From: Nitrospirota bacterium
GTDB lineage: Bacteria; Nitrospirota; Thermodesulfovibrionia; Thermodesulfovibrionales; UBA6898
DNA: 64,000 nt
Assembly: GCA_016235245.1 (NCBI GenBank)
Contig: JACRLO010000004.1
Location: 1 to 64,000 of the forward strand
Direction of reading: 5' to 3'
A model generated the notes under the pieces. It was given only the letters and a program-made list of their open reading frames with translations, made no database searches and was not told the DNA's origin. Shown here one piece after another: positions 15,128 through 46,819 of the stretch (position 1 is its first letter; every line of letters starts with the position of its first letter). Made by a program: the position numbers and the translations under genes.

Positions 15128-16372
15128 ATGCCTGACCCTTTGATATCAACTCCTGATACGGTTCTTGCGACCGGTGATCCGGGAGACGAAACTGCCCGCC
15201 GTTATTACTATCAATGGACTTACGCGGCTATCATTTGCTGCATGCTACTAGATGAGACACAAGAAGTTACAGAAGTTTTCTGTGAACACCATGAAGATGT
15301 GCTAATTAAGCATATGGATGGAATGTTTTCAGGTTTGCAAATAAAGACCCGTAGGTCAGATCAAGAAGTATGGAAAACTAGCGATGAGGCTGTGAGGGAC
15401 TCCTGTGTTCGTTTCTCAAAGCTCGAAGCCGAGTTTCCCGGTCAGTTTCGTGCATACCACTTCCTTACGAATCATCCTCTGTACTCTTCTAAGAATGGTC
15501 AGGATCTCCGTCACCTTCTTCAATCAATCAAGGTAACAGCTTCTGTGAATGATCTTTCCGGGCCAGCCGCAAAATTTCTGAATCGTGTATCCAGCGAAGC
15601 TGGTTGCTCCGCTGAATTAGCATTTATCGCATTATCTAAAACTGAAGCCTCTGACGATTTGCCGAAGCTCTCTGATATAGAGACCCGCCTTGTGAGTACA
15701 CTTGCGGGAGTGTGGGCTCGTGCGCGGGATTGTTCTCACACTGCTGTTGTGCAGGCAGCACGAAATCTAATATCGGAGTGCGGACGGGCATCATCCCTTG
15801 CCCATCAGGATATTCTGCCAGCCTATCTTCCTGCTACAGCCGATTATGTGACGGCTGAACTTACTGCACGCCTCGCTGCCAAGAGAATTAGTCGTTTGCA
15901 CATTATAGAAATTCTTGATTCTGGCTTGAATGAGACTGCCACCTTGGTCGGCGATCCCGAAGCCTACGTATTACCAGGCACTGGAACGTCAGATCTTCTT
16001 CTCAAGAAGCTCGACGCAGGCGGCTTTTCCGCTGTCTCTCGCAACTCGGCGTTGGATCTTCGGGACAAAGCTGACTATTTAGGGATTGTCTGGACCAAAA
16101 AACATGGACGTGAATCGGGGCTTCAGAGATACGGACACGTGAGGTCAATTGTGCTTAATGATGCGGCAAGAGCCTTTGAGGTAGCTAAGAGCGAGGAGCG
16201 CAAGTTTGGACTCGAAATGCTTTCCGAAATTCGCTCCCGATTTCAACAACGACGGACAGACAGAAGTCAGTTATACGAATGCAGCAATGAGCATCTTGAA
16301 GGATTCGCATACTCCTTGACTTCAGAGTGCAAGGTTCAATGGAGCCTCGACCGCCCATGGGAGGACGAGTGA
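15128..16372 (+). CDS. DUF4297-type dsDNA nuclease, ABC-3C effector component
   Basis: A 414-residue protein whose N-terminal domain matches the DUF4297/Cap4-type PD-(D/E)xK nuclease: GDETARRYYYQWTYA near residue 18, then E56-D57 in CEHHEDVLI, and LQIKT with the QxK at residues 71-73. DUF4297 nucleases cut double-stranded DNA in several conflict systems. Its C-terminal 200 residues are helical and unnamed. It is the first gene of a three-gene unit: the next gene starts inside its stop (GTGA) and the third encodes a Rad50-like ATPase. That order is the ABC three-component architecture described by Aravind and colleagues. The nuclease is presumably the effector, released or directed by the ATPase after infection is sensed. 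Confidence 0.8.
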   Translation: MPDPLISTPDTVLATGDPGDETARRYYYQWTYAAIICCMLLDETQEVTEVFCEHHEDVLIKHMDGMFSGLQIKTRRSDQEVWKTSDEAVRDSCVRFSKLEAEFPGQFRAYHFLTNHPLYSSKNGQDLRHLLQSIKVTASVNDLSGPAAKFLNRVSSEAGCSAELAFIALSKTEASDDLPKLSDIETRLVSTLAGVWARARDCSHTAVVQAARNLISECGRASSLAHQDILPAYLPATADYVTAELTARLAAKRISRLHIIEILDSGLNETATLVGDPEAYVLPGTGTSDLLLKKLDAGGFSAVSRNSALDLRDKADYLGIVWTKKHGRESGLQRYGHVRSIVLNDAARAFEVAKSEERKFGLEMLSEIRSRFQQRRTDRSQLYECSNEHLEGFAYSLTSECKVQWSLDRPWEDE

Positions 16373-16920
16373 CAGATTTCGTACAGGTGCTCGCCGACCT
16401 CGATCAGTCACCCAAGTTGCATGTGGCGCGAATCCTCATTCTTCTGGCTGCATTTGTGGAAGATGGCCAAGATGGGGCTATCGAAGGGCTGACGAAACTT
16501 GCCAAGTTGGATTTTCTGCTTCGCTATCCGATAATGCTTGAACGAGCACTTGAAGCTAAGAAGCGGTCTATCCGAGAGGTCCAGATAGAGGATCATGAAC
16601 TCCATAGTGTGGAGTCTGAGATGGTGCGATACCGCTTCGGTCCTTGGGATCACCGATATCGTGAATTTCTGAACATTTTAGTAGCAAAAGGACTTGTATC
16701 TATTAGCATGGAAGGTCGAAAGGTCGTCATAACGACCACCGAGCAGGGCCGCATTCGAGCTCAGGAACTCGCTAATGATGAAGTGTTCAAGCCTTATGTC
16801 CGACGATCAAAGATTTTGAAGAGACACTTTGATATAAACGCAACTACCCTCATGCGCTTTATTTATGACACGTTTCCCGAAATTATTTCTTTGCGGGCCA
16901 ATGCCCACATAACGATATGA
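16369..16920 (+). CDS. ABC-3C middle component-like protein
   Basis: A 183-residue protein starting at GTG 16369, within the stop of the nuclease gene (GTGA), which implies coupled translation; an ATG at 16327 would give a longer overlap. The sequence looks like a winged-helix protein: helical N-half (LHVARILILLAAFVEDG), then YRFGPWDHRYREFLNILVAKGLVSI and a beta wing (RKVVITTTEQGRIRAQEL). Middle components in ABC-3C systems bridge ATPase and effector. The specific subtype (MC2-like) is my inference. Its ATGA overlap with the next gene locks the three genes together. Confidence 0.72.
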   Translation: MTDFVQVLADLDQSPKLHVARILILLAAFVEDGQDGAIEGLTKLAKLDFLLRYPIMLERALEAKKRSIREVQIEDHELHSVESEMVRYRFGPWDHRYREFLNILVAKGLVSISMEGRKVVITTTEQGRIRAQELANDEVFKPYVRRSKILKRHFDINATTLMRFIYDTFPEIISLRANAHITI

Positions 16921-18854
16921 AGATTTGCCTTCGACAGCTGGTCGTTCGCACCAGGAGGACCACTGAGCAGATCAACTTCTCTGAGGTCGTGACGTTCCTG
17001 CATGGTCCAGTGAGCACAGGCAAATCGACTGTCGCGCGTCTTGTGGATTATTGTCTGGGAGGGGATCTTGAACGCACCCCTGCTATCCAGCAAGAATTTA
17101 TTGCAGCAGAGCTATCGCTGATCCTTGGAAGCTACAATTGTTTGATCGAGCGATCAGCCAATGACAACCAAAGCGTTCGGGTGACGTGGTCTGGACTGGA
17201 AGATGATACTGGATCAATCAATGCTCCACTCAGTGCTCAATCTGCGCCACTAATTAATGCAGAAGTTTATAGCCTGAGCGACTTGATCTTTTACCTCTGT
17301 GGAGTTAGCCCGATTAAGGTGCGGCAACGAAGCCGTGACCCAGAATCTCCGCTGATTCGTTTGAGCATTCGCGATATCTGGTGGTACTGCTATCTCGATC
17401 AAATGCACTTGGATTCTTCTTTTTTCCGCCTTGAGGACCCATTTCGAGGGAGGAAAAGTCAGGATGCTATGCGATTCTTTACGGGATTGCATTCCGAGCA
17501 GCTTAGCCAGCTCGAAGACGAACTGATGCGGATCATTGATGAGCAAAAATCAAAACGTGACGCAGTGCAGCAGATTCGTTCTTTTATGGCTCGCTTCGAG
17601 CTTGAGTCAGAAATAGATATGGTTGCTCAACTTCAGGCGGCGGAAGCTGAACTTGCCAATGCTGAGCAAAGACGAGCCGAACTTGAACGCACTCGTTCTG
17701 CAGAAACCCATCCGTCAGATACTCTCCGCATGGAGTTGCGACGATTAAGCTCAGATATTGAGAGCATAAGCCAAGCGATTGCCGATGAAAATGAGTCAAT
17801 AGGGGAACAGAAGGCTCTTCGAGCTGAGTTTATTACCGCTAAAACAAAGGCTGGACGAGTTGAGCAAGCTGGGAGAATTCTTGAAGGGGTTAGCTATCAG
17901 CGCTGTCCTGAGTGTGGGTCTGATATATCAAACCGTCCTTCTACTGGAGATCGATGCCGTCTGTGTTGTAATGCTCAGATTGAAGTTTCAATTACGACTC
18001 CGATTGAACTGGAAGCATTTCGCCTGGATCTCAATGAGCGAATCGATCAGATTGCTGATTCCATAATACGCCGCGAACGTGAATTAAGCCGCATGGAACG
18101 TCAGTTGCTGCAGACTCAGAAGCAAAAAGCATCTCTTGATAGACAGTTACAAGAAGAACTTGATAGATACGATTCGGCTTTTGTAGAGAGTATCAGGGGA
18201 TCTGAGAGGGACATCGCTACGCTGGTTGAACGAATTAGATCTCTGCGACGACTGCAACAAATGCCGATAGCGATTGATGCTCTTGAAGAGGAAGCAGGAG
18301 CATTGCAAGGTCAAATCGACCGCCTGCGAACAGATGTTACTGAGGAGAGACATCGGCTGCGCGCTGCCGATGCTAACATAGCTGCAATTGCTGCTGAGTT
18401 TAAACGTATTATGATAGCGGTTTCCTTTCCAGGTGTCTCCAATAATGACGAAGTTGTCATCGACCCTCGGAATTGGAAGCCGACTGTCCTCCATGGTGAT
18501 CAGGAGTGGACCTTCTGGGATACCGGGAGCGGCGGGAAGAAAACGCTGTTCAATGTGTGCTATGCACTCGCCATTCACTCGGTTGCACTGGAACGAGAGA
18601 TGCCTATCCCTGACATATTAATCATCGATAGTCCGACTAAGAATATTAGTGAGGACGAGAATCCAGAGCTTGTGCGATCGCTCTATGCGGAAATCTATAG
18701 GCTCGCTATGGGGCAAAATGGTCGCAGGCTACAATTTATATTGATCGACTCAGATCTTGTTGGGCCGAGTAGTGAACTGCGAAGCTTTTCAGAACGCCGA
18801 ATGGCGGGAGTGCCTGATGCTCCCAGCTTGATACCGTACTACACAGGCCCATAA
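16917..18854 (+). CDS. DUF3732-like ABC ATPase with zinc hook, ABC-3C sensor/motor
   Basis: A 645-residue SMC/Rad50-like ABC ATPase. Seen directly: Walker A HGPVSTGKST near residue 30, long coiled coils on either side of a zinc-hook motif CPECGSD ... CRLCC near residues 329-350, the ABC signature region TGSGGKKTLFN near 536, and Walker B ILIIDSPTKNIS near 568. Like Rad50, such proteins dimerise through the hook and head domains and probably sense DNA structures or phage DNA. It ends the ABC-3C operon. No terminator hairpin is evident in the 228 bases before the next gene. Confidence 0.82.
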   Translation: MKICLRQLVVRTRRTTEQINFSEVVTFLHGPVSTGKSTVARLVDYCLGGDLERTPAIQQEFIAAELSLILGSYNCLIERSANDNQSVRVTWSGLEDDTGSINAPLSAQSAPLINAEVYSLSDLIFYLCGVSPIKVRQRSRDPESPLIRLSIRDIWWYCYLDQMHLDSSFFRLEDPFRGRKSQDAMRFFTGLHSEQLSQLEDELMRIIDEQKSKRDAVQQIRSFMARFELESEIDMVAQLQAAEAELANAEQRRAELERTRSAETHPSDTLRMELRRLSSDIESISQAIADENESIGEQKALRAEFITAKTKAGRVEQAGRILEGVSYQRCPECGSDISNRPSTGDRCRLCCNAQIEVSITTPIELEAFRLDLNERIDQIADSIIRRERELSRMERQLLQTQKQKASLDRQLQEELDRYDSAFVESIRGSERDIATLVERIRSLRRLQQMPIAIDALEEEAGALQGQIDRLRTDVTEERHRLRAADANIAAIAAEFKRIMIAVSFPGVSNNDEVVIDPRNWKPTVLHGDQEWTFWDTGSGGKKTLFNVCYALAIHSVALEREMPIPDILIIDSPTKNISEDENPELVRSLYAEIYRLAMGQNGRRLQFILIDSDLVGPSSELRSFSERRMAGVPDAPSLIPYYTGP

Positions 18855-19082
18855 CCTGATATCGGAACTAAAAGCCGCACGCTCTTGCCTTTTGTGGAGC
18901 CTATTTATTTCGGTGTATGGAAATAAAAAAGAACAGCCCATTTGAGAATGTACTTTTGATTTTACTTCTTCATTGCCATGATGAATCTCTAACGGTTGCC
19001 ATTTAAGCGTGTCCTATAAAATTCCACCAACAAAGAAAATATCTGCTATACTTTTGCTGATTCTCTTATACTTAAGTACAAC

Positions 19083-20045
19083 ATGGGCATTAAGAATATA
19101 TATGAACGTTTCATCTGGTTTGATGATCGGGTAAGACGGAAAAAATACCCGAATACGACAAGCCTTGCTCACGAATTCGAGATATCGGTAAAGACCGCCC
19201 AGCGGGACATCGAGTTTATGAGGGACAGGCTGAACTGCCCTCTGATTTATGATGAGAGTCTTAAGGGCTACCATTACGAGGACGAAACATTCTCTCTGCC
19301 ACTCATGTATCTATCATCTGCTGAACTGTCCTCCCTTGTTGTTGCCCGTAAACTGCTTCAGGACATCAGCGGAAGCTATATTGCCGATGAGATAACCACG
19401 GCTGTCGATAAGATTACCTCAATCATAAAGAAACATGCCGTAAGCCCGGACAGCATGGATGATGTGATGTCATTTCATCTTATTGAGTATTCGCCGGCTC
19501 CTGAGGATATTTTCAGGACTGTGCTTGAGGCTTGCCTTAAGAAGAAAAGACTGTCATTCAATTACAGCTCTCCTGCAAGGAAAGAGGATACCACCCGTTG
19601 CATTGATCCCTATCACTTATTCAACTACATGGGCGCCTGGCATCTTATAGGCTACTGTCATTTGAGAAAAAACATGAGAGACTTCAAGCTCAACCGGATC
19701 AGGACACCCCAAATGCTTGATGAAGGCTTTAGCATTCCACGGGACTTCAGCGCCAAGCACTATTTTCAGTCATCCTTCGGCATATATAAGGGCAAAGACA
19801 AAAAGCAGGTTGTACTCCGCTTTACTCCGGATACGGCAAAATGGATCAGCGATCAGATATGGCACAGAGAGCAGCAGACAAAGACTCTCAAAGATGGTTC
19901 GCTGGAGCTGAGCTTTCCAGTCGCTGATTTCTCCGAGATAGCCCGTGAGATCCTCAAATATGGCTCAGGTGTTGAAGTGCTCAAGCCTGAAGTCCTCCGT
20001 CAGTTCATCAAAGCTGAAATAGATAAAGCCGCCAAGATTTATTAA
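19083..20045 (+). CDS. WYL-domain transcriptional regulator
   Basis: A 320-residue regulator: N-terminal DeoR/HTH_11-type winged helix (LAHEFEISVKTAQRDIEFMRDRLNCPL), a central WYL domain (KKRLSFNYSSPARK ... HLFNYMGAWHLIGYCHLR ... FKLNRIR), and the C-terminal WCX extension (VVLRFTPDTAKWISDQIWH). WYL regulators such as BrxR and CapW repress defence systems and are thought to sense nucleic-acid ligands. It is the first gene after the ABC-3C operon and stands just ahead of the Hsp70/GrpE/phosphatase cluster. The direct repeats TATACTTTTGCTGATT / TATACTTAAGT just upstream may be its own operator. Its likely targets are the two 39-bp elements at 20061 and 21600. Confidence 0.85.
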   Translation: MGIKNIYERFIWFDDRVRRKKYPNTTSLAHEFEISVKTAQRDIEFMRDRLNCPLIYDESLKGYHYEDETFSLPLMYLSSAELSSLVVARKLLQDISGSYIADEITTAVDKITSIIKKHAVSPDSMDDVMSFHLIEYSPAPEDIFRTVLEACLKKKRLSFNYSSPARKEDTTRCIDPYHLFNYMGAWHLIGYCHLRKNMRDFKLNRIRTPQMLDEGFSIPRDFSAKHYFQSSFGIYKGKDKKQVVLRFTPDTAKWISDQIWHREQQTKTLKDGSLELSFPVADFSEIAREILKYGSGVEVLKPEVLRQFIKAEIDKAAKIY

Positions 20046-20060
20046 AGCCATTCCAGACCC

Positions 20061-20099
20061 CGGTCACTCCATGGGGGAGGTCCCACTCTATAATGGAAT
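20061..20099 (+). promoter_or_regulatory. 39-bp promoter-like element, copy 1
   Basis: The element reads CGGTCAC, four bases, TGGGGGAGGTC, six bases, TATAATGGAAT. A second copy with 30 of 39 identical bases and no gaps lies at 21600-21638. TATAAT (20089-20094) is a perfect -10 hexamer, but no TTGACA-like -35 stands 17 bases upstream; the conserved G-rich block occupies that place. This suggests an activator- or repressor-bound promoter. The RNA start would fall just before the GGGAGG ribosome site of the gene at 20116. Confidence 0.65.
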
Positions 20100-20115
20100 A
20101 TAGGGAGGAACTTCA

Positions 20116-20760
20116 ATGTCGATGACTTTTGGCGTAATTCGTTGCGACGCGTGTGATTTCGGAACAAATACCATGAACAACTGGGGCGGATTCTTTTACG
20201 TGTTCTCTGACAAATATGAGCTATGGGTCAGAAGAGAATTGGGCTGGTGCTATACCTGCAACACTATCCAACCGATTGAATATCTGACGGATATTAATAA
20301 ACTGATTGATGTCATCCCTTATCTGCGGAAGGAACTTGTCAAATTAACAGGACATGGCATCCTGAGATTTCTGAGACGGTACTTTGGAAAGAATAGGATA
20401 GAGATAGAGCTTCTCCAGGAAGAGATCATAAAAGCAGAGCGGTTTATTGCTCTTCTAAAAGCCAGACAAAGTCCTCCTAAATGCCTCAAATGTTCCGGCA
20501 GCAAGATTGCGCACTTTGATATTCCGGAGTTTTATGAAAAAAAGGAGCCACAACAAATATCATTTAGGCATCCGGGCTGCAATGGCCAGCTCTGGGTTGA
20601 AGAAAGTGGGTTGCGCATCGCGGCACAGATGAACAGTCGCTACTACACATTAGAGGGAGATTTCATATCCGAGGGTGATAATCAGTCCCCTCAAAGTTAT
20701 TACAGTAAGAGACCAAAGGACCACCCGTTAGACACGATAAAAAGACTCTATTTTGGGTAG
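20116..20760 (+). CDS. Unknown cysteine-rich protein with zinc-binding motifs, 214 aa
   Basis: Unrecognised protein. It begins MSMTFGVIRCDACDFGTN, with a CxxC, then GWCYTCN with another; these four cysteines probably bind one zinc. The middle (about 55-120) is helical and basic, including RFLRRYFGKNRIEIELLQEEIIKAERF, and could form a coiled coil. A third CxxC occurs in KCLKCSGSK near residue 123, with H and C (FRHPGCNGQ) further on, a possible second zinc site. It is first behind the copy-1 39-bp element, and the next gene starts 8 bases downstream. Its tie to Hsp70 is by position and by the shared promoter element. Confidence 0.65.
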   Translation: MSMTFGVIRCDACDFGTNTMNNWGGFFYVFSDKYELWVRRELGWCYTCNTIQPIEYLTDINKLIDVIPYLRKELVKLTGHGILRFLRRYFGKNRIEIELLQEEIIKAERFIALLKARQSPPKCLKCSGSKIAHFDIPEFYEKKEPQQISFRHPGCNGQLWVEESGLRIAAQMNSRYYTLEGDFISEGDNQSPQSYYSKRPKDHPLDTIKRLYFG

Positions 20761-20768
20761 GAGAAAAA

Positions 20769-21590
20769 ATGGACGAACAAACCAGATTTAAGCTGCTGTA
20801 CGGCGGCATTTATGATGTCAATATCACCCTGACGAAATGCTACAGTTATGGCTGCCTCTATTTCCGGGTTTCTGTCGGGAATCAAAGTGTAGATGTAAAA
20901 GCCTGTAATACTACTGACTATTTCCCGGGCTTTATCCGTTGGATAGAGGCTATTGCTGTCGGAGTTGAAGAATGTGCGTTTGTGGCTGACGAAGAAGGAG
21001 GAATTGATAAGAAATTTGTTTATGAAAGAGGAAGAGATGGCATATTCATAATTATGAACTATGGGGATAAAGATGAATTATTGGTGGCGCCGGTAAATAC
21101 CAAACAAATGGTAAAAGCCTTTTACGAAGGGCTAAGAGCATTTGCCACATCATCGATATATGATAGAAGGAGTTGGGAAGGGGACAGAATTGCAGATCGT
21201 CTTCTTGACGCAAAATTCCTTCCGGATAGCGCAGCCGAAATACTCGATCACATGCTGACTCTCAGTGTACAGGAGTTAAAAGAGCTTATTCATAAAGTAG
21301 CACCTATCTGCCTTCCATTTCCTGATCCTGGTCCCTGCAATCCGCCCGCTGAGTTTCATGAAGTCCTGTTTTCAAACCCTGATCAAGATAATCCCGGCAA
21401 AACAATTGATTATCTCGGAAGCTTTTGGTACTGGGATGTTCCAGGTGAGTATGACAGTTGGGATGTTGAAGCCAAACGAAAATATTTGATCGATACAATG
21501 AATGAGAAAGCGCCTTGGGAAGATGAAGGAACTATATTTGCCAACATCCACTCTGACATTATCGAACAATGGATAGATAAAGAAGAATAA
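20769..21590 (+). CDS. Unknown protein, 273 aa, in the Hsp70-TPR cluster
   Basis: An acidic protein of unknown function, with AGGAG upstream of the ATG and 8 bases after the previous stop. The first 120 residues are beta-rich (KLLYGGIYDVNITLTKCYSYG, YFRVSVGNQ). The rest is mostly helical and includes a pattern LLDAKFLPDSAAEILDHMLTLS. No membrane segment or signal peptide. It is the last gene of the first transcription unit of the cluster and is followed by the copy-2 promoter element. I see no catalytic signature, so it could be an adaptor or substrate-binding part. Confidence 0.62.
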   Translation: MDEQTRFKLLYGGIYDVNITLTKCYSYGCLYFRVSVGNQSVDVKACNTTDYFPGFIRWIEAIAVGVEECAFVADEEGGIDKKFVYERGRDGIFIIMNYGDKDELLVAPVNTKQMVKAFYEGLRAFATSSIYDRRSWEGDRIADRLLDAKFLPDSAAEILDHMLTLSVQELKELIHKVAPICLPFPDPGPCNPPAEFHEVLFSNPDQDNPGKTIDYLGSFWYWDVPGEYDSWDVEAKRKYLIDTMNEKAPWEDEGTIFANIHSDIIEQWIDKEE

Positions 21591-21599
21591 TTTAAACCT

Positions 21600-21638
21600 C
21601 GGACACGCTTTGGGGGAGGTCGTCCTTTATACTGGAAT
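21600..21638 (+). promoter_or_regulatory. 39-bp promoter-like element, copy 2
   Basis: Second copy of the element at 20061: CGGACAC, four bases, TGGGGGAGGTC, six bases, TATACTGGAAT, with identical spacing throughout. The -10-like TATACT is at 21628-21633. It lies 32 bases before the ATG of the Hsp70-TPR gene, which has its own AGGAGG. Matching control elements before both transcription units imply that the unit at 20116-21590 and the unit at 21671-26750 respond to the same factor. Confidence 0.65.
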
Positions 21639-21670
21639 CAGGAAACAAAAAAGGTATTCAGGAGGGCGAC

Positions 21671-24052
21671 ATGAGCAAGGTATATTTTGGTATCGATCTC
21701 GGGACAAGCAGGTCATCTATAAGCTATGTAGTCGATAATCCCCGCGCAGGACAGGGTGTCTATCTGGAACCCGAAACAGTCAAGTTCAGTCCGCCTCCAG
21801 GCGCAACAGCATACCATCATCTGCAACGTTACCCGTCGGTAATTTATCTCGAAAGAAAACAGAAGAAGCTGAAAATCATCTCGGGGTTTGAGGCCGATGC
21901 TGCAGCCAGCGGGAAACTGGCAAAGCCTTTCGAGAGTCTCTTCGCATCCGCAAAGTCCGATATGGGCACGTTGAGAATATATGAGGATTCAATATCGCCT
22001 GATATATCTACCCCGAAGGAGGTCTCGGCTGAGATAATCAGGCAGCTTATAAGGGCAGCAGAAAAAGAGACCGGCATTTCGCCAAAGAACTGTAACGTTG
22101 TAATAACCGTTCCGGCTTCTTTCATGCATAACCAGCGAAAGGACACATTGGAGGCAGCTAAAATGGCTGGCCTTAATATCGATGAGGGAGACCTCCTTGA
22201 CGAACCGATTGCAGCATTCATCCACATGGCCTGTCACCAGAAGCTTGATGCAAGACTCGACATGAAGACCTCGAAGAAGATACTTATGTTTGATCTGGGT
22301 GCCGGCACCTGTGACATATCACTTTTTGAGGCTGCCTATGATATAGAGCAGTTACAATCCGGCGTGGGCCTTCAGATAAAAAACAGAGCAATCAGCAACT
22401 ACAAAAAGCTGGGCGGCGACAACATTGATCTTCACATAGTTGAAGAGGAGCTTTTACCAGCCTTCTGTGAAAAAAACGGTATAGACTTCAAGACACTCAA
22501 GGAGAAGACAAAGCGTGAAGTGCGGTTCAGGCTGAAGGCTGTGGCAAAACTTCTGAAGGAATCTCTCTGCAGGCAGCTCGACACTCATCGGACGACAAAA
22601 GAGGTGCGGCAGTCATGGGCAATAGATTCAATGGTCATTTCATCGTTTGACGAAAGGACAAAGAAAGTCCATGGCAATATGTCTTTGAAAAGGTTTATGG
22701 AATTAATGGAGCCTTTTGTGACAGATGATCTCGAAAGCTCTTATAAGGTTGCCGATGACTATTACACCTTTTCCTTCTTTGGGCCAGTCGTCAATGCCCT
22801 AAGGAAAGCAGGCTTGCGCATGGCTGATATTGACGGCTTCATATTTAACGGTGGCAGCTGCCATAACCCTGTTATAAAAAAGGCTTTTTCCGGATACTAT
22901 CAGCTCTCGCATGCAAATTTCTTCGAAACCCCTGATCTCGATAGGTCGGTATCCCAGGGCGCAGCCATACACTGCTACCATCGCCATAAGAATGAAAGAA
23001 TAATTGTTGCGCCTATCGTTAACACTGAAATAGGGATCTATACCTATGGCCTGAAAAGAGAGGCGTTGGTAAAGGCCGGAGCAGAACTCCCCTTCCCGCA
23101 TGAGGGATATTTTATCAATGATAATTTCTGTGTGCCGAAGGACAATCTGGACAGTGTCGGCATATCCATATATGCGGATGATGGCAGGGTCATAAGCAAC
23201 CTCAGACTCGCATTGCCTCCCCACACGGCAAAAGGGGAACCGATCAGTATTGGCATCAGCATAGACCGCAATAAAGTCATGAGTTTCACCGCTGCCCTGA
23301 AAAATGCACCTGATTCAAAAATGAAGGTGGAGATTAGTCATCCCTGGACCCATAATGTAAATACCCCTGAGGATATGGACGTCGGAAGGTGCTGGGAGCA
23401 GATTGCTGAAATGAGGATGAAGGGCTCGTCTGTCCCACATGATAAGCTGATCGATCTGTCAATTAAGGAACGCCTCAGGGGAAACTCAACAGCTGCCCTC
23501 GAAATACTTCAGCGGCTTGAGGATAAAGGTATTCAGACGGCGAGGATTAACAATGCGATTGCTCTTGCCTATGGTGATCTTGATGAAGAGGAAAAAGCCC
23601 TGGAATATTTTAAAAGGGCAGTCGAGCTGGAGCCACGGAATGCTGTTATGCTGGCGAACTATGGCAGTCAACTTGTGATGTGCGGTCAGGTCACTGAAGC
23701 AATCCCTAAATTAAGAGAGTCAATTGATATCGATCCGGATGAATATATTGCCTATAACTGGCTTGGACATGCTTATCGGCATATCGGAGAAGAAGATAAT
23801 GCCCGCCAGGAGTTCAAAAAGGCCCAACAACTCCTGAGGGCAGTAAGTTCAAGGTATCCTGACAATGATTGGTATTTGAAATATATGGAGGGGGTGCACA
23901 GAGCTCTTGGTGAGTATGATGAGGCCGACAGGGCCAGAAAGCAACAGCAGAATGCGCGCAACACCAGGCTACTGAACGGAAGTCCCGAAGCCCTTGTTGC
24001 AGGGCCTGATTCAGGGATATGGGAGGAGGCTGATCTTTTTGAAAACAAATAA
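21671..24052 (+). CDS. Hsp70/DnaK-like ATPase with C-terminal TPR repeats
   Basis: A 793-residue Hsp70-family protein of unusual shape. Its ATPase domain shows phosphate motif 1 (YFGIDLGTSRSSIS, residues 4-17), phosphate motif 2 (ILMFDLGAGTCDISLF near 205) and the adenosine motif (GFIFNGGSC near 390). A beta-rich stretch from about 440 to 580 stands where the substrate-binding domain should be, but I cannot match it to the DnaK domain. Residues about 593-725 form at least three TPR units, for example ALAYGDLDEEEKALEYFKRA and YNWLGHAYRHIGEEDNARQE. The C-terminal lid of true DnaK is absent. The next gene encodes a GrpE-like protein, which fits an Hsp70 that needs nucleotide exchange. Substrate recognition by the TPRs is inferred. 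Confidence 0.85.
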   Translation: MSKVYFGIDLGTSRSSISYVVDNPRAGQGVYLEPETVKFSPPPGATAYHHLQRYPSVIYLERKQKKLKIISGFEADAAASGKLAKPFESLFASAKSDMGTLRIYEDSISPDISTPKEVSAEIIRQLIRAAEKETGISPKNCNVVITVPASFMHNQRKDTLEAAKMAGLNIDEGDLLDEPIAAFIHMACHQKLDARLDMKTSKKILMFDLGAGTCDISLFEAAYDIEQLQSGVGLQIKNRAISNYKKLGGDNIDLHIVEEELLPAFCEKNGIDFKTLKEKTKREVRFRLKAVAKLLKESLCRQLDTHRTTKEVRQSWAIDSMVISSFDERTKKVHGNMSLKRFMELMEPFVTDDLESSYKVADDYYTFSFFGPVVNALRKAGLRMADIDGFIFNGGSCHNPVIKKAFSGYYQLSHANFFETPDLDRSVSQGAAIHCYHRHKNERIIVAPIVNTEIGIYTYGLKREALVKAGAELPFPHEGYFINDNFCVPKDNLDSVGISIYADDGRVISNLRLALPPHTAKGEPISIGISIDRNKVMSFTAALKNAPDSKMKVEISHPWTHNVNTPEDMDVGRCWEQIAEMRMKGSSVPHDKLIDLSIKERLRGNSTAALEILQRLEDKGIQTARINNAIALAYGDLDEEEKALEYFKRAVELEPRNAVMLANYGSQLVMCGQVTEAIPKLRESIDIDPDEYIAYNWLGHAYRHIGEEDNARQEFKKAQQLLRAVSSRYPDNDWYLKYMEGVHRALGEYDEADRARKQQQNARNTRLLNGSPEALVAGPDSGIWEEADLFENK

Positions 24053-24635
24053 GAAGTCTCTCAAAAGAAAACCAAAAAATGTCTGGAACTCTGTCAGAAA
24101 GCTCGAAGGGTATCTCAAGAAGGCTGATATTCAGGCAAATGTCTTTATGGATTCGTTGCAGGAATTGAGAGATGAAATTACCCTTGAGGTTAAAGGCTGC
24201 ATTGTCCGAGACCTCTGCAAGTCGGTCAATGGTGATATTCTGCATGAACTGTCGGAACATAAAAGGCGCAGGGAAGCAGGACGCCTTGGAAACAGCATTG
24301 AGCAGAATGCTGTGCTGGGCAGCATATTCGATACTCTTACAGACGTGCTTCAGCTCGCCCCTGTGAGAAATGTCGGAGAGCGCTTCAGTCTCAGCAGGAC
24401 AACAGCGAAGGATTATGAGTTTGATGAACACCCCCAGGCGCTTGATGATGAGAAAGTGGAGCATTTTGAAGTTGAGGTATTGCGCTGCGGATGGAAGGTC
24501 GGGAGCAGACTGATAGTTAGGCCGATAGTATTTGAGGCAGGTCTCAAAAAGCCGTTCCGCTATGAAGAACCTGATCCTTTGGCAAATCTAATGTTTGTGA
24601 CGAGTGAAGGAGACGGCAATGATCCCGGAAATTGA
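24039..24635 (+). CDS. Divergent GrpE-like protein, probable nucleotide exchange factor
   Basis: A 198-residue protein, start TTG 24039 with GGAGGAGG nine bases upstream, overlapping the end of the Hsp70 gene by 14 bases. The N-terminal third is basic then helical (VWNSVRKLEGYLKKADIQANVFMDSLQEL). The C-terminal 70 residues carry the GrpE beta-domain pattern in order: FDEHPQALDDEKVEHFEVEV, then RCGWKVGSRLIVRPIVFEAG, compared with the HEAV ... GYxxxxRVIRPAxV of GrpE. Similarity is weak, so I call it GrpE-like rather than grpE. Position directly after an Hsp70 supports the role. It would release ADP from the TPR-Hsp70. Confidence 0.65.
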   Translation: MKTNKKSLKRKPKNVWNSVRKLEGYLKKADIQANVFMDSLQELRDEITLEVKGCIVRDLCKSVNGDILHELSEHKRRREAGRLGNSIEQNAVLGSIFDTLTDVLQLAPVRNVGERFSLSRTTAKDYEFDEHPQALDDEKVEHFEVEVLRCGWKVGSRLIVRPIVFEAGLKKPFRYEEPDPLANLMFVTSEGDGNDPGN

Positions 24636-25227
24636 TATCAAGATAAAAGAATGCAGCGAATTAGGTTATGACCTTTCAAGGCAGAGCAACTGGATTATTG
24701 GACAGGCTTATTGTTACGAATGGGATGCAACAAAGGAAGCGGCACTAAAGCAGGGTATCAATCTTGATAGTTTTCTGACTTTCCAGATCGGCTACCACTT
24801 AGCCATTAAGAACCCTAAAGGCAAATTTCTGGTATGGTATGTGCCTTTTGGCGAGATGTTTTTTTTGACCGTAACGCGAAAGGGCAAGACAATTCCAACC
24901 TGGATGGCTGACATAGCAGGATACCGAGAACAGGGCCAAGATTATCTCAAGGAGAATTCCAGACCATTCCTCTATTATGATGGCCTAAATGTAACGCGGG
25001 TTCATTTCGTGTCTGAAACTATTGAGCAGGACGCATACTATATATCTGATCTCGGCAATATGTTCGGACTGAACGTTGCGCGTACAGAAAAGGATAACTA
25101 CGAAGACATCAGAGATAATGCCTCTAAATATTATGACTGCGCTGTAGTGTCATCTGAAGCCATACAGATCGCGGAATGGATGGGCAAAAAGATCGTGATT
25201 AATCATGCGTTCTGTAGGCTTGTATGA
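24619..25227 (+). CDS. Unknown protein, 202 aa, in the Hsp70-TPR cluster
   Basis: An unrecognised protein. Start ATG 24619 is preceded by AAGGAGA seven bases upstream; an in-frame GTG at 24604 is the alternative. It overlaps the GrpE-like gene by 17 bases. The sequence is rich in aromatic residues and looks like an alpha/beta fold: GYHLAIKNPKGKFLVWYVPFG, FFLTVTRKGKTIPTWMADIAGY. No membrane span or motif. The close overlaps on both sides indicate one coupled unit from 21671 to 25990. Confidence 0.6.
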   Translation: MIPEIDIKIKECSELGYDLSRQSNWIIGQAYCYEWDATKEAALKQGINLDSFLTFQIGYHLAIKNPKGKFLVWYVPFGEMFFLTVTRKGKTIPTWMADIAGYREQGQDYLKENSRPFLYYDGLNVTRVHFVSETIEQDAYYISDLGNMFGLNVARTEKDNYEDIRDNASKYYDCAVVSSEAIQIAEWMGKKIVINHAFCRLV

Positions 25228-25267
25228 GCTCATGGCAAACGTGCTTGAACGAGGACAAGGTGTCAAA

Positions 25268-25990
25268 ATGACTAACAGCCGGCTTTTGGTAATGGGTGAT
25301 ATTCATGGAATGTATGATGAATTGATGCTGTTACTCAATTCCAGCGGTTATGAGCCGAAAACGGATGAGCTAGTGGTTCTCGGTGATTATATTGACAGGG
25401 GTCCCCAGTCCAGAAGTGTTATTGAGTTCTTTATGGATCTCAAGGCCAGACATGGCTCAAGAGTAACGCTTCTCATGGGAAATCATGAAGAAATGTGCCT
25501 GAAGGCTCACAAGGGGAATAGGGACGCTCGCATTGCGGCAAAGTTTCACTGGCTGGCAAACGGCGGAGAGGCAACGCTGCAGAGCTTTGGTGGCGAGCTC
25601 CCTGCCGGTGTCATTTCCTTTATGAAAAAGCTGCTACTGTATGCAGAGACCGAACAGTACATCTTTGTTCATGCCGGAGCAGATCATTCATTGCCTTTGT
25701 CTGAAGCTGATCCTGAAGATCTTCTCTGGAGCAGTTCACCCCTGCCTCATTACAGCGGCAAGATGGTGATCGTTGGCCATGCCATTCGTGATGAGGTAAG
25801 TTTTCATGCCAGATCAAATACCCTTTATATCGACACGGGCGCATTCCAAAGTGTTTGGGGCAGAACAGGAAGATTAAGCATGGTAGACCTTGTATACAGG
25901 AAAGTCCACTGGATAAACACAGGTGGCCCCGATCATGGAACATACAGCGTGAATGAACTGATTATTGAGCCGTTGCGTTTGCATAGATAA
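25268..25990 (+). CDS. PPP-type serine/threonine phosphatase
   Basis: A metallophosphatase of the bacterial PrpA/PrpB type. All metal-binding motifs are visible: GDIHGMYDEL, GDYIDRGPQS and GNHEEM in order, then HAGADH and GHAIRDE. I chose ATG 25268 (AAGGTG upstream), which puts GDIHG 12 residues from the start as usual; an in-frame ATG at 25205 would overlap the gene before it by 23 bases. Such enzymes remove phosphate from Ser/Thr or Tyr, or hydrolyse dinucleotide polyphosphates (Ap4A). In this cluster the substrate could be the Hsp70, one of the unknown proteins, or a nucleotide alarm signal. Confidence 0.85.
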   Translation: MTNSRLLVMGDIHGMYDELMLLLNSSGYEPKTDELVVLGDYIDRGPQSRSVIEFFMDLKARHGSRVTLLMGNHEEMCLKAHKGNRDARIAAKFHWLANGGEATLQSFGGELPAGVISFMKKLLLYAETEQYIFVHAGADHSLPLSEADPEDLLWSSSPLPHYSGKMVIVGHAIRDEVSFHARSNTLYIDTGAFQSVWGRTGRLSMVDLVYRKVHWINTGGPDHGTYSVNELIIEPLRLHR

Positions 25991-26027
25991 GCAGAACGTC
26001 TGAAAATACTTCTTAGGAGAAATCAGC

Positions 26028-26750
26028 ATGACCCCAATGAAAACAGTGTCAACATCCAAAGGAGAAGTTAAACTCTTTCCCCCCACAGTGGAGCTTCTTG
26101 AGTCCATCCGTTCTTTTTTACCTTTCGGAATAGCCCGCTATACTTCGACGTATCAAGGCGCTGACTTCGGGTTAGTCATAAAGCGCGGCGAGGACGAGCT
26201 CTTCGCTGTCAAGCAACAGCCCATTGATTACGATGAGGCGCAGAGCAACATCACACGCCAGGCCAATGCTATCCTTGTTGCGGAAAGTCTGCAGAGCTAC
26301 CTCAGTCACGGCTTCTCTGGCCTGTTTATGCCATTCGCTTATCGCCGCACTAAAGACGCTGGGCGCTTTGAGACAGGGATTGCATATTTTGGAGCTCCAT
26401 CCAAGCAAGGCCGTGAGTGCCTTGAGTATCCCTTTGACGCGGCTTACGACAGACAGTTCGGTCACGGTTTTACAACCATGATGGGCACCTTTATCCGAGC
26501 TCTTCAGCAGAGTTCGCGTGATACCGGCATCAGTCTTGACAGAATAATTGGTCTCGATGTGAGGTCTTTGCTTCAGCTTGGCTCATTCTCCTTCGGCTAC
26601 ATGCTTGTCGGCCCACACGTTATATGCCTTAAGACAGAGGTATCAGAGCGGGACCCAACATGGACAATTCTTAGATCCACGGGTATCTCGGAAGTATTTC
26701 ATATTCCGAGTATGGCCGCAGTGCTTAAATCATCGGCGAGTACAAACTGA
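26028..26750 (+). CDS. Unknown protein, 240 aa, last gene of the Hsp70-TPR cluster
   Basis: Unrecognised soluble protein. GGAGA lies seven bases before the ATG and 37 bases separate it from the phosphatase. The sequence is alpha/beta with motifs such as LFAVKQQPIDYDEAQSNITRQ and IIGLDVRSLLQLGSFSF, but no catalytic signature that I can name. It ends before a bidirectional terminator hairpin at 26815-26846, which closes the cluster. Confidence 0.6.
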   Translation: MTPMKTVSTSKGEVKLFPPTVELLESIRSFLPFGIARYTSTYQGADFGLVIKRGEDELFAVKQQPIDYDEAQSNITRQANAILVAESLQSYLSHGFSGLFMPFAYRRTKDAGRFETGIAYFGAPSKQGRECLEYPFDAAYDRQFGHGFTTMMGTFIRALQQSSRDTGISLDRIIGLDVRSLLQLGSFSFGYMLVGPHVICLKTEVSERDPTWTILRSTGISEVFHIPSMAAVLKSSASTN

Positions 26751-26814: not shown

Positions 26815-26846
26815 AAAAAGGACACTCCATTTGGAATGTCCTTTTT
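26815..26846. terminator. Bidirectional intrinsic terminator
   Basis: AAAAAGGACA and TGTCCTTTTT flank an imperfect stem (ACTCCA / TGGAAT, one mismatch) with a four-base loop. A-runs on one side and T-runs on the other make it work in both directions. It lies between the last gene of the Hsp70 cluster and the converging primase-like gene. Confidence 0.8.
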
Positions 26847-26901: not shown

Positions 26902-27672
26902 CTATACTGTTCTGAGAGTCCTGAAAAAAACATTGTGAACATTCTTTATGACCTGTGTAATTGCTTCGTTTCCGTTAGTCATTAAGTTCACAAGTTTCAG
27001 ATCGCTCAAGAGCCTCATCTGTTCCTGGGAAATGTACCGCAATCCGAAATTGCAGATTGCCTGTTTCCCTTCGCCTATAAGTTTCAGGCACTGAAGCATG
27101 TCAGTCGTGAAATAGACTTCCTGAGAAGGATCTACCCGATGGTAATTATACAAATAGAATTCTGGGTTGAAAGAGTGATGAAAAGCAGGTTTGGAGTCTT
27201 TCAGTTTCATTCCCCAGTAAGCGATTTTCTTTCCGCTTTCGTTATGAACCGTGAAAGCGATACAACCGCTCATCATAGTCTTGCCTTTTGGCTTTCCCAC
27301 TCCGAGTTCCTTCGCTATCTCTGGAGAGATCACTCCTTCGAGCTGTTTCAGGTAATCAAGCTCGTAGTTAAGCGTTAACTCATTGGTTATTTTGGAAGTG
27401 GCTGTAGTTATTGCCTTTTCCTCAAGGAGCTTGGACGCTTCTTCCCACGAAAGTTTCTTAACTTCCATGGTTAAGGTTACAATCTGCCCGCTGATTTTGC
27501 ATTCAGGACAGTAAAGAACATTCTTCTTTTCCCCGAATGATTTGATAACTGCCTGTTTGTCGCACTTGTGGCAAGGGTACTTTACGTATGCTCCCGACGG
27601 CTCTCCTTCTATTCCCAGTAAAGAAAGAGCTTTTACCGTGTCTACGGCGGTTATAAGGTCGGAATATTTCAT
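26902..27672 (-). CDS. Primase-like protein with CHC2-type zinc finger
   Basis: A 256-residue protein with an N-terminal zinc finger KYPCHKCDKQAVIKSFGEKK ... LYCPECK of the DNA-primase CHC2 kind, followed by a region resembling the Toprim-linked part of phage/plasmid primase-helicases (GCIAFTVHNESGKKIAYWGMKL, then YNYHRVDPSQEVYFTTDMLQCLKL). Toprim acidic residues are not clear, so activity is doubtful. It is much shorter than a full primase, and no helicase follows. The ATG at 27672 has AGGAGG upstream. It lies at the island edge beside the tRNA cluster, where replication genes of integrative elements often sit. Confidence 0.65.
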   Translation of the reverse strand: MKYSDLITAVDTVKALSLLGIEGEPSGAYVKYPCHKCDKQAVIKSFGEKKNVLYCPECKISGQIVTLTMEVKKLSWEEASKLLEEKAITTATSKITNELTLNYELDYLKQLEGVISPEIAKELGVGKPKGKTMMSGCIAFTVHNESGKKIAYWGMKLKDSKPAFHHSFNPEFYLYNYHRVDPSQEVYFTTDMLQCLKLIGEGKQAICNFGLRYISQEQMRLLSDLKLVNLMTNGNEAITQVIKNVHNVFFRTLRTV

Positions 27673-27818: not shown

Positions 27819-27895
<77 letters not shown>

Positions 27896-28022
27896 TTTTA
27901 TTGCTGAGATCAGTGAAACGATACGTAATTGGTGATAAGGTCCGGAGATGCTATGCTTTTCCCGGTTTTTTCGTTTATACTATTCACTGGTCACCAGCTT
28001 CAACATTAACGGTTTTTATTAT

Positions 28023-28100
28023 GGTGGGTGTAGCTCAGTTGGTTAGAGCACCAGGTTGTGGCCCTGGTGGTCGGGGGTTCGAGCCCCCTCACTCACCCCA
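28023..28100 (+). tRNA. tRNA-His (anticodon GTG)
   Basis: 78 bases including the extra G at position -1 that identifies tRNA-His, paired with C73, and encoded CCA. Anticodon loop TTGTGGC gives GTG. The acceptor has one G-U pair. Confidence 0.94.
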
Positions 28101-28201
28101 TTTAACACTTGCCCGTATAAGGTGCGGGGTCATCAATCGGGTATTTGGTTTTGGCGTCTCATACGGTCTTATTCCTGATTGAATTTATAACGTTTTTTCA
28201 T

Positions 28202-28278
28202 GCGCCTGTAGCTCAGATGGATAGAGCATCAGCCTCCGGAGCTGAGGGCCGGAGGTTCGAATCCTCTCAGGCGCGCCA
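28202..28278 (+). tRNA. tRNA-Arg (anticodon CCG)
   Basis: 77 bases with encoded CCA and loop CTCCGGA, anticodon CCG, reading CGG. The acceptor and D-arm are almost the same as those of the Arg-TCT gene at 27819, suggesting duplication with a changed anticodon arm. Confidence 0.95.
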
Positions 28279-28407
28279 CCCAAATCCTGCTCTTGAAGAA
28301 GTAAAGAAAAGTTTTTCTTTAACCGGGCAGTTTTGGTTGACTCTGAAATTTATTTTGATTAATATATCGTTTCACTGGTTATTGATTACCAATCACTGTT
28401 TTTCAAT

Positions 28408-28483
<76 letters not shown>

Positions 28484-45352: not shown

Positions 45353-46819
45353 GTGGCCATGAACAGCAGCACAATGCTTCTGATCCTGCTGGGCGTTCCC
45401 CTCTGTGCGGCTGCGGTATTGGCCTTTGTCGGTGACAGGAAATTCGCTCCCGAGATCAACATCCTCGGTTCTGCTGCGACGCTTGCGGCTGGTGTCGGTC
45501 TTGCGCTTGAGGTATATATGCAGGGCCCTATGCTTGCAGGAGGGAAGTTCTTTTTTGTCGATGCCTTTAATATTTACCTTTCGGTGCTCACCTCGTTTGT
45601 CTCGATGACCACTGCCATGTTCAGCAGGGGGTACATGCGGAGAGAGCGGGAGCATGGCCGCGTCGGCCATGTTGGCATGCGGTTTTACCACGCCATGTTC
45701 CAGCTTTTCATTTTCGCCATGCTCCTCTGCCTTCTGACCAACAATGTCGGCGTGCTCTGGATAGCCATGGAACTGGCGACCCTTTCAACGGTCCTGCTTG
45801 TCTCTCTGTACCGCACACCCACAGCGATCGAAGCTGCCTGGAAATACTTTATCCTCTGCGGCGTCGGCATTGCACAGGCCCTGTTTGGGACCGTGCTGCT
45901 CTACTTTGCAGCGGAGAAGGTGCTGGGGGAAGGGGGCGAAGCCCTTCTCTGGACTAACCTGAGCCGGGTGAGCGGCAGCCTTGAACCGACCGTGCTCTCC
46001 CTTGCCTTTGTCTTTTTGATGGTGGGGTATGGGACCAAGGTCGGTCTAGTGCCGCTCCATAATTGGCTGCCGGATGCGCATAGCGAAGGACCTACGCCGA
46101 TATCTGCAGTGCTCTCAGGACTTCTGCTCAATATCGCGCTGTATGCGCTTGTGCGCTGTAAGGTGCTTGTTGACGGATCAACCCATACGCACCAGGCTGG
46201 CAACATCATGATGGGTTTTGGCCTTCTTTCTATCCTTGTTGCGGCATTTTCGCTGCTTCGGCAGAAGGATATCAAACGCATGTTCTCCTATTCCTCCATA
46301 GAACATATGGGCATAGCGACCTTTGCCTTTGGCCTTGGCGGCCCTATTGCCACCTTTGGCGCACTCCTGCATATGCTCGTGCACAGTCTTGCGAAGTCGG
46401 CCATATTCTTTACGGTCGGTCATGCCTCGCAGATGCACCGGACCCAGGAGATGGACAGGATCAGGGGGCTTTTTAAAGGCAATCCCCTTGTCGGCTGGGG
46501 TCTTATGATCGGCGTAATGGCAATTGTCGGAATGCCGCCCTTCGGGATCTTTGCGTCCGAATTTCTTATACTGACGGCAACCATGAAGGATGCTCCCTAT
46601 TTGACACCCTTTCTCCTTCTCGGCCTTGGTGTCACCTTTGCGGCGCTTTTCAGAAAAGTTCAGCCCATGGTCTCAGGAGATGTTCCCTCATATCAAAAGC
46701 CGGTTAAGGCAGCGCATCTGCCGGTGCTGCTGCATCTGGCGCTGGTCCTGATCATCGGTATTTACATGCCTGCCTTTTTGAATACATGGTTTCATACTGC
46801 GGTGGAGTTATTGAAATAA
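45353..46819 (+). CDS. Ehr complex antiporter-like subunit (HyfF/NuoN-like)
   Basis: A 488-residue NuoM/N-type protein with about 14 spans. It carries VGYGTKVGLVPLHNWLPDAH followed by SEGPTPISAVLSG, and LRQKDIKRMFSYSSIEHMGI; the lysines of the proton path are present. This is the second antiporter-like subunit, so the complex has two such channels, fewer than hydrogenase-4 with its HyfB, D and F. The GTG start lies 8 bases after AGGAGG and directly at the stop of the preceding gene; the ATG at 45359 is the alternative. Confidence 0.88.
   Translation: MAMNSSTMLLILLGVPLCAAAVLAFVGDRKFAPEINILGSAATLAAGVGLALEVYMQGPMLAGGKFFFVDAFNIYLSVLTSFVSMTTAMFSRGYMRREREHGRVGHVGMRFYHAMFQLFIFAMLLCLLTNNVGVLWIAMELATLSTVLLVSLYRTPTAIEAAWKYFILCGVGIAQALFGTVLLYFAAEKVLGEGGEALLWTNLSRVSGSLEPTVLSLAFVFLMVGYGTKVGLVPLHNWLPDAHSEGPTPISAVLSGLLLNIALYALVRCKVLVDGSTHTHQAGNIMMGFGLLSILVAAFSLLRQKDIKRMFSYSSIEHMGIATFAFGLGGPIATFGALLHMLVHSLAKSAIFFTVGHASQMHRTQEMDRIRGLFKGNPLVGWGLMIGVMAIVGMPPFGIFASEFLILTATMKDAPYLTPFLLLGLGVTFAALFRKVQPMVSGDVPSYQKPVKAAHLPVLLHLALVLIIGIYMPAFLNTWFHTAVELLK

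Follow-up and report, generated by a model that had tools for sequence, protein, structure and literature searches.

The window, a stretch of 64,000 nucleotides from a Nitrospirota bacterium, carries a cluster of eight genes on its forward strand, and a check of its open reading frames found every one of them in place. The first gene (19083..20045) encodes a WYL regulator, the likely activator of the cluster, in which HTH, WYL and WCX domains were all found, the last two with significant Pfam matches (2.4e-22 and 5.1e-16) and the first with a weak match to HTH_11 (0.0089). An operator, O1 (GGTCACTCCATGGGGGAGGT, 20062..20081), follows with a -10 box TATAAT at 20089-20094, and precedes gene A (20116..20760), which encodes a CxxC-rich, zinc-ribbon-like protein, and gene B (20769..21590). 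A second and exact operator, O2 (GGACACGCTTTGGGGGAGGT, 21601..21620; -10 box TATACT at 21628-21633), lies 50 bp upstream of the start of a gene for an Hsp70 with TPRs (21671..24052). A GrpE-like protein, a candidate nucleotide-exchange factor, is encoded at 24039..24635 from a TTG start within the Hsp70 gene, with the Shine-Dalgarno sequence GGGAGGAGG, and is overlapped by gene C (24619..25227; an alternative GTG start is possible at 24604). Next come a PPP-family phosphatase (25268..25990; Metallophos 1.2e-18; motifs GDIHG, GDYIDRG and GNHE), for which the nearest phage family is the NinI-like Ser/Thr phosphatase, and gene D (26028..26750). Genes A, B, C and D are locus-specific and matched no significant Pfam family. 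An intrinsic terminator at 26815..26846 (fold -16.4 kcal/mol, z = -4.2) closes the cluster on the same strand.

The original prediction had described this gene content and the terminator at its end, and the reading-frame positions, the Pfam matches and the fold energy bear it out. It had also treated the cluster as a single unit. The genes and their spacing stand, but the WYL-A gap and the B-Hsp70 gap each hold a promoter, and the two promoters share one operator, so that the cluster need not be a single transcript. In the surrounding island, the type I RM, the KAP (PifA-like) and the PIN genes were confirmed, while the unit taken for ABC-3C scores as Lamassu LmuA/LmuB. The core proteins had no significant match to a known system in PADLOC-DB, where WYL models and weak TPR/Hsp70 matches were the only returns.

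The Hsp70-TPR protein consists of a nucleotide-binding domain (NBD) and a beta substrate-binding domain (SBD) followed by TPRs. The Pfam HSP70 match (3.2e-29) covers residues 112-562 and profile positions 107-503 of 599; the alpha-helical lid was not found with Pfam, and the TPRs at 624-753 occupy its position. Alignment with the DnaK of the same genome showed an actin-like NBD with its catalytic residues, D9, K95, E178, D208 and T213, which are invariant in five family members (D8, K70, E171, D194 and T199 in E. coli DnaK). Loss of the catalytic lysine was considered and ruled out, as K70 of DnaK aligns with the invariant K95. The beta-SBD is present, given that the profile match extends to 503 of 599 and that Foldseek matches include lid-less DnaK structures, and is a part modelled with low confidence. 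No J-domain partner was recognised among the cluster proteins.

The GrpE-like protein gave no match to PF01025 (GrpE) even at E 1, an hhalign comparison with the housekeeping GrpE of the same genome was not significant, though the C-terminal wing aligned, and a profile built from the GrpE-like alignment returned nothing but chance matches among PDB sequences. Fold prediction was therefore used. Structure prediction had been proposed for both proteins, and it was informative for the GrpE-like one, while the Hsp70-TPR model (pLDDT 61.6) is too weak for detail. The AF2 model of the GrpE-like protein (pLDDT 76.5) has a long helix, short helices and a beta wing, and its top seven PDB matches in Foldseek were all GrpE or GrpEL1 chains (best E 6.2e-4), with low TM-scores of 0.25-0.37. 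This predicted fold, together with conserved adjacency in five genomes, upholds the idea of a dedicated GrpE-like partner, and the protein is a candidate exchange factor that may serve the adjacent Hsp70-TPR.

The two genes recur, always adjacent, in five Thermodesulfovibrionia genomes from five genera, and are missing from most relatives, including nearly all members of the family. A WYL gene lies near the pair at four of the five loci and is broken at one of these; genome G023 has the pair and an exact operator, yet holds a WYL gene only as a broken fragment elsewhere. The four other Hsp70-TPR proteins are 57-59% identical to the copy in the window, compared with 83-88% for housekeeping DnaK, which points to an accessory protein that is fast-evolving or transferred. 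Housekeeping DnaK and GrpE are encoded elsewhere in the same genome, in keeping with an accessory role for the pair.

The operators O1 and O2 are instances of a 20-bp element, GGACAC-N4-TGGGGGAGGT, which precedes both gene A and Hsp70 in the cluster and is found at the head of the Hsp70 operon wherever the pair occurs, in five genomes out of five. It is not clearly palindromic, is found at many loci and is tied to a -10 box, which lies exactly 7 bp downstream at 54 of 61 sites. In the 3.2-Mb genome of origin, three sites were found with up to two mismatches, two in the cluster and one beside a second WYL copy; as the reversed-pattern control also yielded three, their placement and not their count is telling. 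Across the genomes of the class, 62 sites were found at no more than one mismatch against about 15 for the control. Viral contigs contained no exact match to the operator plus its -10 box. A scan for consensus sigma-70 promoters gave no more matches than shuffled sequence, which is what promoters lacking a -35 box should give. With the element near -26, a fixed distance to the -10 box and no -35 consensus, these promoters resemble those of PafBC in their layout, and the WYL protein is their candidate binder.

In relatives, the element stands in front of type I-E and type I-C CRISPR-Cas genes and of AddAB-like, restriction and YhcG genes. Downstream of it are Cse1, Cas3, Csd1, Cas6, an AddAB-like pair, an N6/N4 methylase, a ResIII protein, GmrSD and YhcG, and a SprT-like protein is also part of the regulon. 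That the cluster belongs to the regulon defined by this element is well supported. Since the operator is shared with CRISPR-Cas and restriction operons, the defence setting that had been proposed now has support beyond the neighbourhood alone, and the Hsp70-TPR/GrpE-like cluster is probably part of a defence programme. It could be that the regulon is instead a WYL-controlled response to DNA damage or general stress, extending to CRISPR and repair, in which the pair shields damaged cell proteins and does not act against phages. The nearest functional models of the regulator are PafBC and DriD, which do run DNA damage responses, and the AddAB-like nuclease pair and the SprT-like protein would fit. 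However, CRISPR-Cas or restriction genes make up most of the targets identified, and the pair differs from a core stress gene in being patchily distributed and in lying amid defence genes such as DrmD, GmrSD and Lamassu, so that we regard this explanation as possible but on the unlikely side.

The element was found in 15 of 17 genomes with a WYL protein of this clade versus 20 of 213 others (p = 3e-12), which bears out the prediction of a WYL-linked cluster and suggests that the WYL protein is the likely binder. Another alternative, about as unlikely as a stress response, is that another factor, such as an alternative sigma factor or a different regulator, recognises the operator and the WYL genes are co-located passengers. 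The rigid -10 spacing would suit a sigma factor too. Twenty operator-positive genomes have no WYL of the clade, and in 15 of these, several of them near-complete, even a cut-off of E 1e-8 revealed no WYL relative, which leaves room for another binder or for relic sites. Against this, operators adjoin WYL genes in most genomes of the WYL clade, the element is missing from all 22 genomes whose WYLs are all more distant, and four WYL-negative genomes hold broken WYL pieces with 45-54% identity. Downstream of many WYL genes in relatives there is nothing that can be recognised as defensive. A repressor of the BrxR/CapW kind, the analogy first drawn, fits less well than activators of the PafBC/DriD type: a search for perfect inverted repeats with arms of at least 8 bases found none upstream of 19 WYL homologues, one lone 8-bp case in the window and no BrxR-like operator.

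The search for co-occurrence of the cluster proteins separated the pair, which recurs, from genes A-D and the PPP phosphatase, which have no counterpart at the four other loci, where the neighbours differ each time. The eight genes are therefore not one fixed system, and a reading of them as one conserved system found no support. A concatenated cargo search of 230 genomes of the class found nothing of note for genes A, B and D among the candidates scored; it scored part of the candidates and missed gene C in the very genome that carries it, so its silence on gene C counts less than the four-locus comparison. Plasmid searches for A, B, C, D and the GrpE-like protein, and viral-contig scans for Hsp70 and A-D, found nothing. 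Close spacing, operators in common and a single terminator might still speak for the eight genes as a single dedicated defence system that needs A-D and the phosphatase as subunits, but given the four other loci we consider this improbable. A housekeeping or secretion operon, suggested by the Hsp70 and GrpE families themselves, is very improbable indeed given the separate dnaK and grpE, the absence of the pair from nearly all family members checked and a decayed second copy in a relative.

The best interpretation of these data, which we hold with moderate confidence, is that the cluster centres on an accessory chaperone/exchange-factor module within a WYL-linked, lineage-wide defence regulon under a PafBC/DriD-like activator. 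The core would be two genes, Hsp70-TPR and its own GrpE-fold exchange factor. The WYL protein, whose signal is probably a nucleic acid (for example ssDNA) present during infection or DNA damage, would bind GGACAC-N4-TGGGGGAGGT at about -39 to -20 and recruit RNA polymerase to promoters without a normal -35 box, activating the A-B and the Hsp70-GrpE-C-PPP-D units in this genome and, in relatives, operons for CRISPR-Cas, restriction and repair. Hsp70-TPR, originally proposed as a sensor or disaggregase, may then bind clients with its beta-SBD and TPR surface, after which the GrpE-like protein would reset it; the likeliest clients would be partners specific to each locus (A-D in the window, different cargo at other loci), or else phage or misfolded proteins. 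More tentatively, the pair may itself be an immune module with antiviral action, in which Hsp70-TPR, cycled by its own GrpE, would activate or disarm the phage or effector proteins it recognises while a PafBC-like WYL regulon switches on CRISPR, restriction and chaperone modules together from a single composite promoter element.

One short promoter element links CRISPR-Cas, restriction, repair and a chaperone module across a mostly uncultured class, and offers a handle on how several kinds of immunity are coordinated in one bacterium. If confirmed, the element could serve to search for defence genes not yet known, and the Hsp70-GrpE pair would exemplify a chaperone cycle made for immunity and not for protein housekeeping.

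Searches of the open-access literature turned up neither this gene set nor this operator, in agreement with the original prediction that no published system matches. GAP1-N2 GTPase conflict systems, in which the HSP70-GrpE theme occurs mostly in Actinobacteria and Firmicutes, likewise encode HSP70 and GrpE together in predicted conflict neighbourhoods, with TPRs in some components (PMC7159879). They are, however, built on TRAFAC GTPase, GAP1 and FNIII proteins, whereas here the TPRs are fused to Hsp70 and neither a GTPase nor an FNIII family was found among the cluster proteins. CnuD of type III CoCoNuTs and NxD McrB-Hsp70 fusions share the Hsp70 NBD/SBD unit, often extended by helical repeats, and the defence setting, but they go with McrBC GTPases and their ATP sites are degenerate (PMC11090510); here the ATPase residues are intact and the cluster proteins include no McrB/McrC homologues. 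The same architecture is seen in Hsp70-TPR proteins paired with a UvrD-like SF1 helicase in place of a GrpE-like protein (loci L084, L085, L004 and L005), several with WYL or defence neighbours; these Hsp70s are distant, at 160-253 bits versus about 1,540 within the family. A precedent for Hsp70/J-protein machinery in phage sensing is bNACHT25 with host DnaJ, but that J-protein is a housekeeping one, while here Hsp70 and its exchange factor are dedicated (PMC12169576).

As for the regulator, BrxR and CapW are likewise WYL regulators of defence islands, and BrxR represses through inverted repeats (PMC9122601, PMC9122588), unlike the operator described here, which is no clear palindrome, occurs at many loci and is fixed to the -10 box. 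PafBC is a WYL activator that uses a -26 motif without a normal -35 box (PMC11804915), and the WYL protein of the cluster resembles PafBC and DriD (PMC11804915, PMC12340889) as a WYL transcription factor, and PafBC also in its putative promoter element at about -26 and in promoters lacking a normal -35. It differs from both in its putative operator sequence and in a regulon made up largely of CRISPR and restriction genes, which it is proposed to activate.

All eight genes of the cluster at 19083-26750 (a WYL regulator, A, B, an Hsp70 with TPRs, a GrpE-like gene, C, a PPP phosphatase and D) were present at the positions predicted, and the terminator at the cluster end proved to be real. Profile searches identified WYL and WCX domains in the regulator, an HSP70 match that stops where the beta substrate-binding domain ends, with the TPRs after it, and a full set of PPP motifs in the phosphatase; for A, B, C, D and the GrpE-like product, neither Pfam nor NCBIfam nor PADLOC gave a significant family. 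The GrpE-like gene starts with TTG at 24039, preceded by a strong ribosome-binding site. The upstream neighbours of the cluster are a type I RM system, a KAP NTPase that scores as PifA, the T7-exclusion family of the F plasmid (10687-12999; 285 bits), a PIN protein and, immediately ahead of the WYL gene, a Lamassu-like trio (15128-18854) comprising an LmuA Cap4-nuclease, a middle protein and an SMC-like LmuB (PADLOC, 296 bits). On the other side (26902-27672, minus strand, and 27819-28483), a CHC2/DnaG-like primase-type protein adjoins a four-tRNA gene cluster and gave weak matches to RT-associated DnaG-like proteins.

The Hsp70-TPR/GrpE-like pair is accessory, not housekeeping. Another contig of the 3.25-Mb genome carries both a dnaK and a grpE, and a search of 230 Thermodesulfovibrionia genomes found the pair in just 5, from five genera, the other carriers being Nitrospirae metagenome genomes. 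The two genes were adjacent and overlapping in each of the five. The four other Hsp70-TPR proteins shared 57-59% identity with the window copy independently of kinship, compared with 83-88% for the housekeeping DnaK, and one relative (G016) retained broken remnants of a decayed second pair (L024, 1-518). This patchy spread, uniform identity and decayed copy fit either fast divergence or horizontal movement of the pair.

The original prediction had read the eight genes as one chaperone-based conflict or stress-response module; the cluster itself stood up to analysis, but its reading as a single system did not, as A, B, C, D and the phosphatase lacked counterparts at the pair's four other loci. 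A concatenated A-D search of the 230 genomes, which scored part of the candidates and whose listed matches lacked C even for the own genome, gave among those matches one marginal hit outside that genome (B, E 3e-4). A tblastn search with A, B, C, D and the phosphatase against all fetched loci, including those four, returned only the same weak match to B, in an unrelated locus. The pair's neighbours were different in every locus, being TPR proteins, an HD protein, GmrSD and a small gene at L010, and a DrmD-like SNF2 protein, an actin-like protein and an SprT-like gene at L023; at L011 the WYL gene leads to Hsp70 with no gene between.

An alignment of the Hsp70-TPR family with this genome's housekeeping DnaK showed the catalytic residues D9, K95 (E. 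coli K70), E178, D208 and T213 to be invariant, and a Foldseek search with a low-confidence Hsp70-TPR model returned Hsp70 structures, some without lid, as top matches. The GrpE-like protein had no sequence-level match to GrpE. Its predicted fold (pLDDT 76.5) comprises a long helix, two short helices and a beta wing, and its seven best PDB matches were GrpE or GrpEL1 chains; because the TM-scores were modest, this lends fold-level support to a GrpE fold rather than proof. In two further Nitrospirota genomes, and on plasmids from Persicobacter (Bacteroidota; WYL gene upstream) and Antarctobacter (Alphaproteobacteria), more distant Hsp70-TPR proteins have a UvrD-like SF1 helicase as neighbour where the GrpE-like protein would be (loci L084, L085, L004 and L005). 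The Nitrospirota surroundings include type IIG RM, HKD-SNF2 and ZacC-like genes, and together this suggests that the lidless Hsp70-TPR is a recurrent defence-island component with exchangeable partners.

Reading of the intergenic gaps of the cluster revealed a 20-bp operator, a GGACAC half and a second half separated by 4 bp, at 20062 before gene A (GGTCACTCCATGGGGGAGGT) and at 21601 before Hsp70 (GGACACGCTTTGGGGGAGGT), each followed by a -10 box. It precedes the Hsp70 operon at all five loci: Hsp70 is the next gene after it in the window and at L011 and L012, while at L010 (two mismatches) and L023 (one mismatch) a small gene comes first in the operon. The 61 distinct sites in the fetched loci showed a tight consensus, with a TANNNT box exactly 7 bp downstream in 54 (other offsets, 0 to 6). 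With the -10 box set at -12 to -7, TGGGGGAGGT spans roughly -29 to -20, and GGACAC roughly -39 to -34. No description of the element was found in the literature searched. A reverse operator half, GTGTCCTATA, lies upstream of the WYL gene at 19009-19018, and WYL autoregulation is possible.

Across the class, 35 of 230 genomes contained operator sites with at most one mismatch; these sites numbered 62, and the reversed pattern yielded about 15. Sites were present in 15 of 17 genomes that encode a WYL protein of this clade (identity of 55% or more, counting fragments), in none of 22 with only more distant WYL proteins and in 20 of the remaining 191 (clade versus rest, Fisher p = 3e-12, uncorrected for kinship except by a family split: p = 0.01 within the window's family, 3e-6 outside). 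Downstream genes included, in several genomes, the type I CRISPR-Cas components Cse1, Cas3, Csd1 and Cas6; further ones encode an AddAB-like pair, GmrSD and YhcG nucleases, a RecB-type nuclease, a ResIII-type helicase, an N6/N4 methylase, ARPP-1 and TPR proteins. Some one-mismatch sites (e.g. L139, L148) have no -10 box at the expected spot and look like chance matches. These data support placing the conserved Hsp70-TPR/GrpE-fold pair in a defence regulon defined by a shared promoter element; the pair itself is a candidate for an antiviral role. A second WYL copy, 56% identical, lies on contig C41 of the window's own genome (44993-45949; also L070); an operator follows some 140 bp further on (46088-46107), and no gene after it obviously belongs to defence. 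Proteins with an ARPP-1 domain and small SprT-like genes repeatedly adjoin WYL genes or operators (L071, L072, L079, L085, L140). In several metagenome genomes (L060, L062, L074, L078) the contig stops just past the WYL gene, which would be expected were the following region variable between strains.

Speaking against a WYL protein as the operator's binder, the operator-positive genomes without a clade WYL comprised 15 without a detectable WYL relative, four with only fragments of a similar one and one with divergent WYLs only. Such genomes may have lost the regulator after transfer of its cargo, or a different factor may bind the operator. The promoter layout points to a regulator of the PafBC kind, and a PafBC-like WYL activator probably also defines the regulon. 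Activated by ssDNA, the WYL activator PafBC engages sigma domain 4 as it makes contact with a -26 motif (PMC11804915), and the likeness rests on the operator's rigid spacing to the -10 box, the absence of a -35 box and the non-palindromic sequence. The last feature sets the operator apart from the sites of the WYL repressor BrxR, which are inverted repeats (PMC9122601).
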